From positions 1 to 25,252 of IMG/VR virus record IMGVR_UViG_3300001213_000225: a stretch of DNA of 25,252 nt. One strand, 5' to 3'. The translations under genes and the position numbers were made by a program. Below, in pieces: positions 5,075 through 25,252 of the stretch. The notes under the pieces are model-generated. The model was not told the origin of the DNA, did no database searches, and saw only the letters and a list, made by a program, of their open reading frames with translations. The stretch's first letter is position 1. Each line of letters begins with the position of its first letter. This DNA is from a virus.

Positions 5075-6033
5075 CTTCTTAACCCCATAACAATTCCCCG
5101 CAAGCTATCCCCTGCAAACAACATTCCCTTCTCTATGCAGTCAAACGCACGGCAGAACGATTTCAATTTTAATAACATTTCAATTTGAAAAATACCTTCC
5201 CCAATAACCAAGCCATCGACTTCTATTGCTGCACCTGTTTCGTCCGGTTCGTTTATTGGGTAGGTGGATAGATGGTTTTCACTAATATAAACCCTGCCCA
5301 TATCATCGCTAAAAGGTTTCAAAGATTCTAGTGCTTTAAAGAACCCGTCAGGAACTGGTTTGCAGTTGGACAAATCACCGGGCAATACTTTATCAATGTC
5401 AGGCCAGCCAAGATCGAATAGGGTTGTTCTTATCCAGCGGTCTTTGGCGTAATGGAACGTCAGGTGGTTCCCGTCGGTCTGAATATAGCTTGGGTGTTCC
5501 CTAACCCTTAACAGCTCTTTGACCGCTTGCTTAGGAATGTTCAATGGTGTTGGGAATGCTGCGTTAATCTGCTTCTGAACTATCACCACATTATTAGTGG
5601 CGACCAGTTTGTCCCCATACAGTAGAATTCCGTTTGCCCAGGGTCGGGAAGCGTCTTCCCCAATTACCGGGTAGAGGTCACTTAAGGCATTATACACAAG
5701 CCCCCCTTGTATTGCGTAGAATGTGCCAGCGGGGTCTAATACTGGTAGGGGCTCCGGGTGGCAATCAACTACCGCCTTAAACGACCCGCTTTTAATAGAC
5801 AACCTGCCTTTGGCAGTAAGGGTCAATGAGGTGTTTTGACCACAGTTGCTAATCGCTTTGATAAGGTTGCCCGCCTTTGGGTTGCACACCAAGTGGCAGT
5901 CAATAGGGGACGAGATGGTTAGATTTCCATTAAAAGAGCGTATGGTTCCGTTGGCTAATTGGAAATGGGACATTGCGGGGATAAAATCTTTTGTAGAGAC
6001 TGCACCCTGCACAAATTTGAGATCGGTTAGCAT
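5071..6033 (-). CDS. Probable DNA polymerase sliding clamp (beta-clamp-like)
   Basis: A 320-aa protein, a little shorter than bacterial DnaN (about 366 aa). It has the alternating beta/alpha texture of a clamp: an opening LKFVQGAVSTKDFIPAM, repeated beta strands, and a C-terminal DSLRGIVMGLRR that recalls the terminal strand of DnaN (VVMPMRL). It lies directly upstream of the polymerase gene, with ATGA overlap, as expected for a processivity factor. Its own start overlaps the dpdA stop (TAATG). Sequence identity to known clamps is too low to see by eye, so the call rests on length, the C-terminus and the neighbour. A different polymerase accessory protein remains possible. Confidence 0.55.
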   Translation of the reverse strand: MLTDLKFVQGAVSTKDFIPAMSHFQLANGTIRSFNGNLTISSPIDCHLVCNPKAGNLIKAISNCGQNTSLTLTAKGRLSIKSGSFKAVVDCHPEPLPVLDPAGTFYAIQGGLVYNALSDLYPVIGEDASRPWANGILLYGDKLVATNNVVIVQKQINAAFPTPLNIPKQAVKELLRVREHPSYIQTDGNHLTFHYAKDRWIRTTLFDLGWPDIDKVLPGDLSNCKPVPDGFFKALESLKPFSDDMGRVYISENHLSTYPINEPDETGAAIEVDGLVIGEGIFQIEMLLKLKSFCRAFDCIEKGMLFAGDSLRGIVMGLRR

Positions 6034-6950
6034 TAGAAAAGTTCCTGGATGACGGGTTCAAATATGGGGGATTTATCAAGGTTAATTCTACGGTTCACTT
6101 CCCCAAAAGACCACACGTTATAGACCGCTCTGGATTCGTATACCTTGCTTAGACGCTCATAATCAAAACCTTGTTCGTGCAGCATGGCGCGGAGGTGCTC
6201 TTGCTCGATAGCGGTCAATGTGGTTAAGTGCTGTCCCCATGTGTGCCTGGAGGGGCTTTTTTCTGAAACCTGCAATGTGCCAAAGTCTGGGGTGATAATG
6301 GTTCCGAATGCAGCACTCTGAACCCAAGAGGATGAGTCAACACTGTGCCAAGGATATTTCTTCATAATTTCTACCGAAGTAATACCAAACGCATGGATTT
6401 TCTTTCTTGGTCTACCATGCTCGTCTATTATATAATTTGACCACATTCTATCCAGCCAGATGATTAATTGCTTGGTGCTGGATCCAACCATGCCGCCCAG
6501 GGTGAGGTAGGGATAATTATCCAGATAGTATTGGAGATACCTTTCGTCCTCCCCTGCGTGAAAACAGGGCAGCGGTGTCACGCCTAATTGTTCCATTCGT
6601 TTCTGGTTCTGGTAGGTGAGCAAGGGGTCACCAATACCGTCCAATACCGACGCAAGAACAACCCCATCTTCCTCCCGGATGATGTCCGTATTGGTTTTAA
6701 TATATTGGCAGTATTCTTCAATGTCAATGGTGACCCCTAACGTATAAGCCGAAAACGCTCCACTATCTATAAATACCTTATCCCCACGCGAACGCATTGC
6801 TTCTACGAATTGGGGTTTGTGAACGTAATGGTATGATTCCAATAGGTGCGGGTATTGGTTCACAACATACTGCTCATATTCATTTAGCTTATCATATCTA
6901 GCGGTGTGTTTATAACCGTTCGAATGTATTGCAGCCATGTAGATGTTCAT
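6033..6950 (-). CDS. dpdA: DpdA-type transglycosylase (inserts 7-deazaguanine into DNA)
   Basis: The 305-aa protein has the hallmarks of the tRNA-guanine transglycosylase superfamily. IDSGAFS (61-67) matches the DSGGFQ active-site motif with Asp62, LGGMVG (151-156) matches the GGL-VG substrate loop, and HSVDSSSW (202-209) carries a candidate nucleophile Asp205. The C-terminal CxCxxC...H zinc site of tRNA enzymes is absent, as in short viral DpdA proteins. In known systems DpdA exchanges guanine in DNA for preQ0 or a related base, protecting phage DNA from restriction. Every preQ0-pathway gene lies immediately upstream in the same operon, which supports a DNA rather than tRNA role. Start ATG 6950 follows the folE stop by 4 nt with a weak ribosome site. 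Confidence 0.85.
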   Translation of the reverse strand: MNIYMAAIHSNGYKHTARYDKLNEYEQYVVNQYPHLLESYHYVHKPQFVEAMRSRGDKVFIDSGAFSAYTLGVTIDIEEYCQYIKTNTDIIREEDGVVLASVLDGIGDPLLTYQNQKRMEQLGVTPLPCFHAGEDERYLQYYLDNYPYLTLGGMVGSSTKQLIIWLDRMWSNYIIDEHGRPRKKIHAFGITSVEIMKKYPWHSVDSSSWVQSAAFGTIITPDFGTLQVSEKSPSRHTWGQHLTTLTAIEQEHLRAMLHEQGFDYERLSKVYESRAVYNVWSFGEVNRRINLDKSPIFEPVIQELF

Positions 6951-6954
6951 ATTG

Positions 6955-7848
6955 TTATTTCACAGCGTTCAAAAATTCCCCGCGGCAACTTGCGTCATCA
7001 TAGAAGCAACCCGCCAACGATGTGGTTATAGTGCTCGAGCCCTGTTGGCAGACACCACGCGATTCCATGCACATATGACGAGCTTCTATTTGCACTCCTA
7101 CACCAAAAGGGGAAAGGTTTCCCATTAAGGCTTGGGCTATCTGGTCTGTTAGGCGTTCTTGCACTTGCAACCGCCTGGCAAAGGCGTCAACCACCCGGTT
7201 AATCTTGCTTAGTCCCACAATACGTTTATTGGGTATATAAGCAACTGTGGCGGTTCCAAAGAAAGGAGCAAGGTGGTGTTCGCAATGGGAATAAAAGGGA
7301 ATGTTTTTAACCAGTATCATCTGATTGTAAGTCTCACCACCATCCTCGAAGCTGGTAAACAATGCGGGGATGTCAACGGTGTAACCACCTGCCCAATGCT
7401 TCCAGGCCTTTGCTACCCTTGCAGGCGTATCCCTTAAGCCTTCCCGGGTTGTGTCTTCACCGATGTATTGTAGCAATCTGACCACATTATCCGTGAAGCT
7501 TTTGTCTGCACCTTGTTCGCCCACTTCCCAGGGGAACTGATACCAGTTGTTGTCTGGCGCCCCTTTGAGTTTGTTGATAAGAGCATAGAACGGTTGATTT
7601 GGGTAGCGTTTCCTTGTTGCCCCAGTATCGATAATATCGTCCACGATTATGTCAGCTTGCTCAAGGGATTCTGTCATTCTATAAGACGGGCTCAATGACA
7701 TTAAAGCATAAGCAACCGGAACCCCGCCTCTTGGTACTGGATAGATTAAAACAGGGTTGTCTTGTGACATTTCAAAATAAGTCAATTGAATGCGTTCGTG
7801 CATCTGTGCAGCTAACCTAATCACATCATGATTTGTTAATACTTTCAT
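6955..7848 (-). CDS. folE: Gpt-like phosphoribosyltransferase fused to GTP cyclohydrolase I
   Basis: This is a two-domain protein of 297 aa. Residues about 120-297 are GTP cyclohydrolase I: LLQYIGEDTTREGLRDTPARV, then HCEHH (188-192) and a later Cys260, giving the zinc ligands Cys189, His192 and Cys260, and RGVCQQGSST near the end. This enzyme makes dihydroneopterin triphosphate, the first step to preQ0. Residues about 1-112 resemble purine phosphoribosyltransferases. PVPRGG (37-42) matches the SRGG loop, VDDIIDTGAT (69-78) is the PRPP-binding motif, and WYQFPWEVG (102-110) parallels the WIEQPWDMG of E. coli Gpt. The stretch between RGG and the PRPP motif is about 20 residues shorter than in Gpt, so the flexible catalytic loop may be missing. 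The start overlaps the queD stop (ATGA) and has a GGGGG ribosome site. Confidence 0.88.
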   Translation of the reverse strand: MKVLTNHDVIRLAAQMHERIQLTYFEMSQDNPVLIYPVPRGGVPVAYALMSLSPSYRMTESLEQADIIVDDIIDTGATRKRYPNQPFYALINKLKGAPDNNWYQFPWEVGEQGADKSFTDNVVRLLQYIGEDTTREGLRDTPARVAKAWKHWAGGYTVDIPALFTSFEDGGETYNQMILVKNIPFYSHCEHHLAPFFGTATVAYIPNKRIVGLSKINRVVDAFARRLQVQERLTDQIAQALMGNLSPFGVGVQIEARHMCMESRGVCQQGSSTITTSLAGCFYDDASCRGEFLNAVK

Positions 7849-8315
7849 TCATCCCCCATTGTATCCAATACGGCTACTGCTGAACACTTGCTTGTCTCGT
7901 AGAATTCTACCTTGACCAGAGTCACGCCTGTTCCCTTCAATTGCAAGGGTCCAATGGTGTGCAGCAAGTAGTCCGCCATATTTTCAGCTGTAGGATTGAA
8001 CGGGAGAAACACTAAAGAATCCCCAATGATACCACAAGGCTCCCCGTACGGACTACTTCCCAACACCTCAAAGAGTTCCCTAAACAACCCGTCCCCGTCC
8101 CAGACTAGAAAGCGGTGATCCCAATTGTTTTCCAACCACATGCACAACCTGTCTTTGACTGCACTAAAGTCCAGCACCCTGCCTATGGCATCCAGGTCAC
8201 CTACACAATGAAAAATCACTTTGCCATTGTGGCCATGCAGGTGCTTACACTTGCACTCGTGACCTGTGACAACATGCCCGTATGAGAATTCATGTTCGCG
8301 CTTAATTGAGATCAT
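7845..8315 (-). CDS. queD: 6-carboxy-tetrahydropterin synthase QueD
   Basis: A 156-aa member of the PTPS/QueD T-fold family. His14 (SYGH) and the HGH pair His27/His29 are the zinc ligands, and Cys23 in CKHLHGH has the catalytic C-x3-HGH spacing of QueD rather than of pyruvoyl-tetrahydropterin synthase. NNWDHRFL, PTAENMADYL and FYETSKC complete the family pattern. It converts dihydroneopterin triphosphate from FolE to 6-carboxy-5,6,7,8-tetrahydropterin, the substrate of QueE. It is longer than E. coli QueD (121 aa) because of loops in the middle. The gene overlaps the QueF-like gene by 14 bp and folE by ATGA. Confidence 0.92.
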   Translation of the reverse strand: MISIKREHEFSYGHVVTGHECKCKHLHGHNGKVIFHCVGDLDAIGRVLDFSAVKDRLCMWLENNWDHRFLVWDGDGLFRELFEVLGSSPYGEPCGIIGDSLVFLPFNPTAENMADYLLHTIGPLQLKGTGVTLVKVEFYETSKCSAVAVLDTMGDE

Positions 8316-8580
8316 TCTTTATGCTCACTGTGTGTTTGTTAAAAATCAATCGAATTGTTGTTTCATCGCATTTAAGGTTCTGGTGAACCAATTCAGCGCA
8401 TTCCTCCATGAACAGTTTCTTTCCTTGCAGAGTCCGCCTTATTATCTTCCTGACATTATAGAGTTCCATAAAAGGTTTGTTGATAAAGACACATTCGACA
8501 AAAATAAAGTCTGGTAAGCCATTGATTGGACAGAAAGTTATAACTGGAAACCAGTGCGTAATTGTTACATGATGATCCAT
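8302..8580 (-). CDS. Minimal QueF-like T-fold protein lacking the NADPH motif, 92 aa
   Basis: The protein aligns by eye with the QueF nitrile reductase core. FCPINGLPDF (16-25) corresponds to the LCPKTGQPDF of B. subtilis QueF, giving Cys17 and Asp24 as equivalents of the thioimide-forming Cys55 and of Asp62. FMEEC (57-61) corresponds to FHEDC, giving Glu59 for Glu97. The Cys-Asp (7) and Asp-Glu (35) spacings are identical. His96 is replaced by Met58. The NADPH-binding motif ESKSLK is not preserved (here ELYNVRK). Archaeal QueF-like (QueF-L) enzymes have this same pattern and convert preQ0 to archaeosine without NADPH. Start ATG 8580 is chosen because GGAG lies six bases before it; ATG 8592 has no ribosome site. 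Other preQ0-modifying activities cannot be excluded. Confidence 0.68.
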   Translation of the reverse strand: MDHHVTITHWFPVITFCPINGLPDFIFVECVFINKPFMELYNVRKIIRRTLQGKKLFMEECAELVHQNLKCDETTIRLIFNKHTVSIKNDLN

Positions 8581-8969
8581 ATGGCGCTCCATGAGGTTGT
8601 TAGTAGAAGACCATGGGCCCAGGATTTATTAAAAAATTCCCACTCTTCGAAATTGCCAAAGCCCTTGGTTATAAATGGATAAAGAAGCCTTGGGGACCAG
8701 CGTTCTGAATGCGTATAAAAATCAAGCACTAAATGGGAGCTTGTTGCAAATACCGTTAGAAACGGGTCAACCCCGAGTAGAATTCCTAACAAGGTTACAC
8801 AACCAACGAACAGTAGACTATGAGTGATAAAGTACCCTATTGTTGGTCTGCAAGTCCTTTTCAAAGGTAACACAACATCCGGAAGAATCCCTAGTGCCAT
8901 CCCTGTCAATGGGAAACCATAGTGATGCCCAACACTTGCACCCGCCAAAGCGTGAGAAAAAATATCCAT
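8565..8969 (-). CDS. YdjM-like (DUF457) inner-membrane putative metal hydrolase
   Basis: A 134-aa integral membrane protein with the pattern of the YdjM/DUF457 family: an N-terminal DIFSHALAGASVGH, a mid-protein PTIGYFITHSLL and SHLVLDFYTHS, each with His/Asp residues at helix ends that could bind metal. About three to four hydrophobic segments are visible. The family is described as inner-membrane metal-dependent hydrolases of unclear substrate. Here it lies between queC and the QueF-like gene, joined to queC by TAATG overlap, so it belongs to the modification operon by position. What it would hydrolyse in this pathway is unknown, and it may simply be a passenger. Confidence 0.75.
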   Translation of the reverse strand: MDIFSHALAGASVGHHYGFPLTGMALGILPDVVLPLKRTCRPTIGYFITHSLLFVGCVTLLGILLGVDPFLTVFATSSHLVLDFYTHSERWSPRLLYPFITKGFGNFEEWEFFNKSWAHGLLLTTSWSAIWIIM

Positions 8970-9715
8970 TACAAATACCCCTTGTAATTATCACTTACTG
9001 GCAATTCCATTAATCCTTCTTTGACTGCTTCCAACACAAGCGGGTCAGGTAACCCGGCTTCCAGGAACCCCTGAGCTCGAAGTACATTTGCATGATTCAT
9101 GTCCGTGGGCGGGTACTTGCCATCGTAGCTTGTGTGGCTATAAGCAAGAGCTTCCCAACAATCAGGCATTGCGTAAGCCATGGTACAGATTTCTTTCTTG
9201 TTTAATTGTAACAGCGGGGTGACGATTTCGATCTGTCGTGCCCCCAAAGCACTGTCAATCATTTGTTGCATTGCTTGGATAAACTTTTCACGACAGTCCG
9301 GATAATTTGCATTATCTGATTCGCACACCCCTGTAACAATACTCTTACAACCCAAGTGAATCGCATGGTTAGCAGCTACCAACAAGAAGAACGGGTTGCG
9401 TAAAGGAACAAACGTTAGTTCAGTCCGGTTACCAATCACCTTATCCATTTGTTCGTAATTAACGTACTGTTCTAATTCGTTATCGCTTAGTAACGGAGAG
9501 GTGGATTTTAATATTCCATCGCATTCCATTAATTCGTGACTATGCACTTTAGCCATCCCCCCGATTTCCAGAGCCGCATTAATTTCAGCACAGTGCCTCT
9601 GCCCGTAATCAAAAGTAATAGCGTGAACCTCTTTATATTCCCGCAATGCCCAAAAAAGACAAGTTGTAGAGTCCTGTCCTCCACTTAAGATAACCAATGT
9701 TTTTTCGTCTTTCAT
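8969..9715 (-). CDS. queC: 7-cyano-7-deazaguanine synthase QueC, zinc cysteines missing
   Basis: The 248-aa protein carries the ATP pyrophosphatase loop LSGGQDST (10-17), FVPLRNPFF (102-110) and GVCESDNANYPDCR (129-142), all typical of QueC. QueC converts 7-carboxy-7-deazaguanine to preQ0 with ammonia and ATP, through an amide intermediate. The zinc region normally reads TCY.G...PCG.C..C.LR..GF. Here it reads TSYDG (195-199) and PTDMNHANVLRAQGF (203-217), so Ser196, Thr204, Asn207 and Asn210 replace all four cysteines. The fold may have lost the zinc, or activity may be altered, for example stopping at the amide. There is no glutamine amidotransferase domain. Ribosome site GGGGGC precedes ATG 9715. 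Confidence 0.88.
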   Translation of the reverse strand: MKDEKTLVILSGGQDSTTCLFWALREYKEVHAITFDYGQRHCAEINAALEIGGMAKVHSHELMECDGILKSTSPLLSDNELEQYVNYEQMDKVIGNRTELTFVPLRNPFFLLVAANHAIHLGCKSIVTGVCESDNANYPDCREKFIQAMQQMIDSALGARQIEIVTPLLQLNKKEICTMAYAMPDCWEALAYSHTSYDGKYPPTDMNHANVLRAQGFLEAGLPDPLVLEAVKEGLMELPVSDNYKGYL

Positions 9716-9724
9716 TTTCGCCCC

Positions 9725-10423
9725 CTATGGCATTTTGATGATTTTGTGAATTTGTAAACTAAGGATATACCCCTGTGTCATGCAGCTCTGGATTGCTTCA
9801 CGGAGATTCTGTTTATTCTTGACCGGGTCATTTTCGTCGGCTGGTGAAATATAAACAGGTACGCGAGGGCAAGGCATGGCAATCCCCCTTGTCGGATGGT
9901 CAAGCACTCTATAAGGTAAACCGTTCTCTGGGTTACACTCGTGGGCTCTAACCACATACTTAAAAGCGCAGGAATTATTGAAAATATCTTTGTGAATGCT
10001 TCCGGTTTTAGGAGCGCACACTATGAACGCTGATGGTCTTGGGGAAAGTGTATTTATACCCCAGTTGATCTGCATGGGTGGCGGGAGTGTCCCGTTTGTT
10101 TCCACCTGCACGGTAAACTTTTCTTCTAACAGGTTTCGAATTAGTTTAAATAAGTTCTGCCGAAATGGTTCGCCCCCTGTAATTATAATAAGGGGTAACC
10201 CGTAGTTTCTGCAATCCTCTACAATATATTGGATTCTCATTTTGTCCCGTCTGGATGTGTAATCCGTATCACACATTGGGCATTGTAAATTACACCCCGC
10301 TAAGCGTATAAAAGTGGCGGGGCGACCTGCGAACGGGCCTTCCCCTTGTATGGTAGCAAAAATGGAATGAACTTCAAGGAATTCCTGGTCGATAAAAGAC
10401 TCAGGTTGTTGGTTGTTTTGCAT
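9725..10423 (-). CDS. queE: 7-carboxy-7-deazaguanine synthase QueE (radical SAM)
   Basis: The 232-aa protein has the QueE-type radical SAM motif GCNLQCPMCDTDY, with Cys44, Cys48 and Cys51 to hold the 4Fe-4S cluster, preceded by TIQGEGPFAGRPATFIRLAGC. ITGGEP (81-86) and VETNGT (107-112) bind SAM and substrate, and the C-terminus SLQIHKIIKMP matches the conserved 'QxHK' end of QueE. The enzyme contracts 6-carboxy-tetrahydropterin to 7-carboxy-7-deazaguanine. It is the first gene of the modification segment, with a GAGGT ribosome site 5 nt before ATG 10423. It lies directly after an intrinsic terminator and has no promoter of its own, so its level depends on read-through. Confidence 0.93.
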   Translation of the reverse strand: MQNNQQPESFIDQEFLEVHSIFATIQGEGPFAGRPATFIRLAGCNLQCPMCDTDYTSRRDKMRIQYIVEDCRNYGLPLIIITGGEPFRQNLFKLIRNLLEEKFTVQVETNGTLPPPMQINWGINTLSPRPSAFIVCAPKTGSIHKDIFNNSCAFKYVVRAHECNPENGLPYRVLDHPTRGIAMPCPRVPVYISPADENDPVKNKQNLREAIQSCMTQGYILSLQIHKIIKMP

Positions 10424-24616: not shown

Positions 24617-25252
24617 ATTTATCTACAGTTAATACCACATTGCTTCTGATTACCGGGTCAGCGGGTAAGATATCCGTATCTGGTTCAGGGGTAGATGCTC
24701 CGTCTGTTCTTTCTCAGTCCTCTAGTTATGCACCCTTTGGGTTCCAACTAGATGATATTGTGGTAGCAGGGTCAACCCCGATAGTAGATGCTCCACCCCC
24801 TTATGAGATTCGGAATGTAAAACAATTAACTATATCTAACACCCATGCAACATTAGCGAATTTGTGCAGGGTTGAACAATATGACGGGGTTCGCCGGATT
24901 GTTAAATGGGCAGGAACTTTACAAGCTGGGGAACGGGTTGAGTTTGATGAGACTGGCGTATGGACTGTCTATAACAGTGAAGGTAGTGGGGTTATTAGCG
25001 GCCAGACTGGACCAATTGGAGCAACTGGTCCAACTGGGGCAGCGGGTCCAACGGGTGTACAAGGTCCTATTGGTGCAACTGGATCACAGGGTATCGCTGG
25101 CCCCCAAGGCTCCATAGGGGCAACTGGACCAACTGGTGCGACTGGGGCTGTTGGTTCCCCCGGCGCATTGGTCAGCCAGGGCACCTGGAATGCGGCAACC
25201 AACACCCCAACGTTAGCGTCAGGCACAGGCACAAAAGGGTTTTATTATACCG
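24610..25252 (+). CDS. Collagen-like structural protein, 5' part of gene
   Basis: From ATG 24610 (ribosome site AAAGGG, 6 nt before) the frame is open to the window end, giving 214 residues. Residues 1-130 form a Ser/Thr/Val-rich beta domain resembling a virion decoration or fibre-attachment domain. Residues 131-187 are 19 uninterrupted Gly-X-Y triplets, rich in GAT and GPT, forming a collagen-type triple helix. After that comes [21 protein letters not shown], the 'GTWNA-TNTPTL-SGTG--G' motif common in collagen-like phage fibres and baseplate proteins. The protein is probably a head fibre or tail fibre; position next to the portal favours a head or neck fibre. The 3' end is outside. Confidence 0.8.
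25000..25170 (+). repeat. Gly-X-Y collagen repeat
   Basis: Nineteen consecutive Gly-X-Y codon triplets with recurrent GGTGCAACTGG-type DNA blocks. The opposite-strand frame across it is a shadow of this low-complexity sequence. Repeat number is likely to vary between relatives by recombination. Confidence 0.85.

Follow-up and report, generated by a model that had tools for sequence, protein, structure and literature searches.

Which step in the synthesis of a modified DNA base would be assigned to a small QueF-like protein whose gene is embedded among genes for preQ0 formation and DNA transglycosylation? The question arises from queF' in a 25,252-base linear virus record, a fragment that we analyzed as a whole and refer to as the window. 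All genes of the locus are encoded on the minus strand, in the order queE (9725–10423), queC (8969–9715; a preQ0 synthase without GAT domain), a gene for a YdjM-like (PF04307) membrane protein (8565–8969), queF' (8302–8580), queD (7845–8315), the start of which overlaps the end of queF', folE (6955–7848; GTP cyclohydrolase I) and dpdA (6033–6950; DNA guanine transglycosylase, phrog_887), beyond which lie the genes for a clamp and for DNA polymerase B. The locus represents a Queuovirinae-type cluster for 7-deazaguanine modification of DNA, and its DpdA shares 57–62% identity with the DpdAs of Seurat-, Nonag-, Nipuna- and Amoyvirus phages; with this DpdA as query, viral contigs yielded one locus (L005), which carries neither QueF' nor a GAT domain. 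FolE is preceded by an N-terminal phosphoribosyltransferase-like domain of ~110 residues with a PRPP-like motif (DDIIDTGAT), and several relatives (NP1, Sphingomonas phage vB_StuS_MMDA13, L035, L037) have a domain like it. Elsewhere in the window, on the plus strand at about 24860–25200, collagen-like GPTGATG repeats lie in a reading frame that is still open at the contig end and probably encodes a tail fibre or virion protein. A preliminary description of the sequence had named the queF' product as a candidate preQ0 amidinotransferase, and this has emerged as the best-supported interpretation: in its predicted fold the protein is closest to archaeal QueF-Like (QueF-L), Cys, Asp and Glu are kept, the NADPH motif and the catalytic His are lost, and the GAT domain of related phages is replaced. 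We consider it likely that QueF' is a viral QueF-L, predicted to act as an ammonia-using amidinotransferase that converts preQ0, either free or in DNA, to G+.

The queF' reading frame extends from the ATG at 8580 to the stop at 8302 and encodes a QueF-like T-fold protein of 92 aa with conserved Cys17, Asp24, Glu39, Glu59 and His83. Translation from a rival ATG at 8592 would give 96 aa, and the ATGGAG codons at this position, which recur in relatives, themselves encode a GGAG. As this putative Shine-Dalgarno element (8587–8590, minus strand) is separated from the ATG at 8580 by a 6-nt spacer, the 92-aa start is the likelier one. Scanning IMG/VR and the GenBank phages with patterns and profiles gave a family of 15 records (the window, MMDA13, L003, L004, L027, L033–L041 and L051), including both L036 and L037, which are near-identical across the region. 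A genome scan returned solely a phage contig (L042, PBAL01000089.1; 55,901 bases) that was binned in a Verrucomicrobiales MAG and carries this cluster; in length it equals the IMG/VR contig of L034.

One family member has been described before. Gp33 of MMDA13 (QHB80466), 42% identical to QueF' of the window and annotated as 'putative archeosine synthase QueF-like', was predicted in a 2020 publication (PMC7472734) to be a QueF-like archaeosine synthase, so the amidinotransferase prediction as such is not new. The gene order in MMDA13 is that of the window, including the YdjM-like gene (Gp34), while the Asp-Glu interval of Gp33 is 6 residues longer. The annotation of MMDA13, whose record is complete, lists no ArcS. 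Within the MMDA13 clade, QueD (L001:9285–9752) is just 22% identical to that of the window despite the otherwise collinear cluster, which suggests that QueD was replaced.

Searches with single QueF' sequences gave no match in Pfam or PHROGs, and the Pfam QueF match within the window is located in FolE and not in queF'. NCBIfam QueF-II was matched weakly (E 0.0093), and scores against TIGR03139 amounted to 15.8–16.9 bits, below its cut-off of 86.9 bits. In the PDB, a single QueF' sequence found chance matches only by phmmer (saccharopine dehydrogenase), and a profile built from the family alone had no match. Alignment of the family with an alignment of five QueFs by hhalign gave an E of 2.3e-5 and a probability of 76%, versus 0.3% and 0.1% for the controls FolE and QueD, placing CPINGLPDF of QueF' opposite CPKTGQPDF of QueF and FMEE opposite FHED. 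At this profile level the similarity between QueF' and QueF exceeds chance, in line with the matching CPxxGxPDF and F-x-E contexts pointed out in the preliminary description. A mixed QueF'-QueF profile also reached archaeal QueF-L from Pyrobaculum calidifontis (PDB 5JYX; E 2.1e-6).

The AlphaFold model based on the family alignment adopts a T-fold (bbaabb, unimodular; pLDDT 88.5), and the closest solved structure is that of archaeal QueF-L (5jyx/5k0p; Foldseek E 3.3e-5, TM 0.75; rmsd 2.0–2.2 Å over 89–91 residues), an enzyme that, as predicted for QueF', performs no NADPH reduction. The Z score was highest for archaeal QueF-L (12.8), followed by GTP cyclohydrolase I (11.5) and B. subtilis QueF (9.8), although other T-fold enzymes give values close to that of archaeal QueF-L. 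Sequence identity to archaeal QueF-L is ~15%, and by coordinates the family Cys (profile column 21) falls on position 21 of the 5jyx chain, the Cys of the published thioimide. With a first, shallower model, the best named match among viral models was 'Archeaosine synthase [Siphoviridae sp. ctJ7x27]' (34% identical). The designation of QueF' as a 'minimal' enzyme is overstated, the archaeal QueF-L chain itself comprising just 109 aa.

Which chemistry would such a protein support? In the window, Cys17, Asp24 and Glu59 are indeed spaced by 7 and 35 residues as in B. subtilis QueF. The first of these spacings (C-x6-D) is shared by all 15 records, whereas the Asp-to-Glu distance varies between 33 and 41; the exact value of 35, to which the preliminary description had attached weight, is therefore a coincidence rather than a family trait. 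In an 11-row alignment (96-residue numbering), invariant positions are W14, P16, T19-F20-C21-P22, N24, L26-P27-D28, E43-L44-Y45, R48, M62-E63, A66, L82, H87 and V89, thus including Cys, Asp, both Glu and the C-terminal His; even in L051, the most divergent member, where much else is lost, C, D, both E and H are still present. The loss of the NADPH motif and the replacement of the catalytic His by Met, both claimed from the window sequence, extend to the family: in every aligned member ELYxVRK stands where QueF has E(S/L)KSLK(L/Y)Y, the RGG turn is absent, and His96 of the QueF H96/E97 pair is an invariant Met, with the Glu retained.

These losses bear on whether QueF' might still be a reductase that turns the nitrile into preQ1, its cofactor site being altered. 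In favor of this, the weak family match points to a preQ1 synthase, QueF-II, and phage QueFs with a role in preQ1 formation exist (PMC6884629); yet because the NADPH motif, the His and the RGG turn are missing from all aligned members, we regard a reductase as very improbable. QueFs of B. subtilis and the phages Dp-1 and HVTV-1 share with QueF' the CPxxxxPD and F-x-E-D/E contexts and the catalytic Cys, Asp and Glu. In contrast to QueF', they make preQ1 and have preserved the NADPH motif, the H/E pair and RGG; our comparison found E(S/L)KSLK(L/Y)Y, HE and RGG all kept in the Dp-1 and HVTV-1 proteins, and E(S/L)KSLK(L/Y)Y plus RGG also in QueFs of HCTV-1, phiSM and Funsized. Hutinet et al. warned of the difficulty in distinguishing QueF from QueF-L in phages; two HHpred-based QueF-L assignments, those for Dp-1 and HVTV-1, proved to be cases of dPreQ1, the base that the DNA of both phages carries (PMC6884629). 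Since QueF' has lost all three motifs except for the Glu, this precedent is not directly applicable, but it is still a reason for caution.

The strongest functional argument comes from the exchange of QueF' with the GAT domain. R7M, MiCath, NP1 and 9g have the same cluster with a Gat-QueC of 467–508 residues, in which an unrelated glutamine amidotransferase is fused to QueC, and they lack QueF' and the YdjM-like gene; CAjan has a plain QueC and neither QueF', GAT nor the YdjM-like gene. Conversely, GAT was not found in eight QueF' records searched in their entirety, nor QueF' in three GAT records searched likewise, and the locus in the window, itself a fragment, contains no GAT domain. Thus, QueF' and the GAT domain are mutually exclusive in related phages. 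On a DpdA+clamp+PolB tree, which comprises only 16 taxa, the distribution of the two requires a minimum of four changes, and the branches concerned are well supported: L027 (QueF') groups as sister with NP1 (GAT), and L035 (QueF') with R7M (GAT). On this tree, monophyly of QueF' was rejected (p-AU 0.00016); the QueF' group had been named by gene content before the tree was built. Gat-QueC, which occupies the same place in the cluster as QueF' and presumably performs the same step, leads together with DpdA of phage 9g to dG+ (PMC6884629), and the DNA base of CAjan is dPreQ0 (PMC8306585). Because 9g has dG+ while CAjan, with neither protein, has dPreQ0, it is plausible that amidination of preQ0 depends on GAT or QueF' filling this slot.

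The slot argument also weighs against a nitrile hydratase, in which water instead of ammonia would hydrolyze the thioimide to yield 7-amido-7-deazaguanine (dADG) in DNA. Such an enzyme would need the same Cys and Asp and no cofactor, and dADG is among the bases known from phages (PMC8306585, PMC6884629). We consider it unlikely, given that queF' occupies the position of a domain that yields dG+ and that the closest fold belongs to an ammonia-using enzyme.

Based on these considerations, amidinotransfer by QueF' may proceed as follows. FolE, QueD, QueE and the plain QueC would make preQ0, and DpdA would exchange it into phage DNA. Cys17 would attack the nitrile of preQ0, as the free base or in DNA; Asp24 would serve as general acid in the formation of the thioimide, and Glu59 and Glu39 would keep the base in position. 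As the NADPH site is lost, the thioimide would then be attacked by ammonia rather than hydride, and the product would be the formamidine of archaeosine (dG+). QueF' would in this way stand in for the GAT domain of the Gat-QueC of sister phages, and the resulting base may protect the DNA from restriction; QueF' probably helps the phage to disguise its DNA. We infer the thioimide and ammonium chemistry from the case of P. calidifontis QueF-L: there, the thioimide forms through Cys21, and G+ is produced from preQ0-tRNA and ammonium (PMC5485725). A further alternative is decarboxylation of 7-carboxy-7-deazaguanine to give dDG. A decarboxylase, DpdL, was reportedly proposed in phages by Cui et al. 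in 2023; every QueF' cluster, however, retains QueC intact. This enzyme would use up the substrate and would itself be superfluous, and for this reason we reject a decarboxylase role as extremely improbable.

A scheme based on QueF' alone has no place for its constant neighbor. The YdjM-like gene, on which the preliminary description is silent, encodes a membrane protein of ~135 residues and lies directly upstream of queF' in all 15 records. Nine of its residues are invariant (D2, H6, D31, H50, H79, D83, H87, E109, E111), all His, Asp or Glu. PF04307 was matched by each of the 10 members tested, two of which also showed weak matches to zinc phospholipase C. No phage in the GenBank collection was found to have the YdjM-like protein outside the pairing with QueF', and in IMG/VR, QueF' is present on every contig with a match. 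Two types of plain QueC accompany the pair, one ~54–61% and the other 34–36% identical to that of the window; the latter is found in L033, L034 and L040 and is close to the 37% of CAjan. It is conceivable, if rather doubtful, that the cofactor-free T-fold transferase and a membrane metal-hydrolase constitute an obligate two-protein module that is exchanged as a unit with GAT and supplies ammonia, acts at the membrane side or makes an undescribed base. The fixed pairing and the PF04307 and phospholipase C matches could also be taken to mean that the pair makes another preQ0 derivative or a further-decorated G+, beyond the products of QueF-L and Gat-QueC. We view this as quite unlikely, as the partner has no known chemistry and archaeal QueF-L works alone (PMC5485725); the latter acts on tRNA and has no known partner protein, unlike QueF' with its YdjM-like neighbor. 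Within the literature searched, which covered few subscription journals, no published mention of this partner was found, and its fixed association with QueF' is apparently new.

As far as checked, the size of the QueF' family, its structural placement beside archaeal QueF-L, the motif contrast to dPreQ1 phages and the repeated exchange with GAT are newly shown here as well. Retention or loss of the NADPH motif provides a sequence rule that could settle the ambiguity between QueF and QueF-L behind earlier mispredictions, and the family points to a YdjM-like partner protein in a DNA modification cluster. If QueF' is indeed an amidinotransferase, a T-fold enzyme would act on DNA or DNA precursors, and phages would possess two unrelated routes to dG+, one based on glutamine and the other on free ammonium, that have been swapped repeatedly at a single locus.
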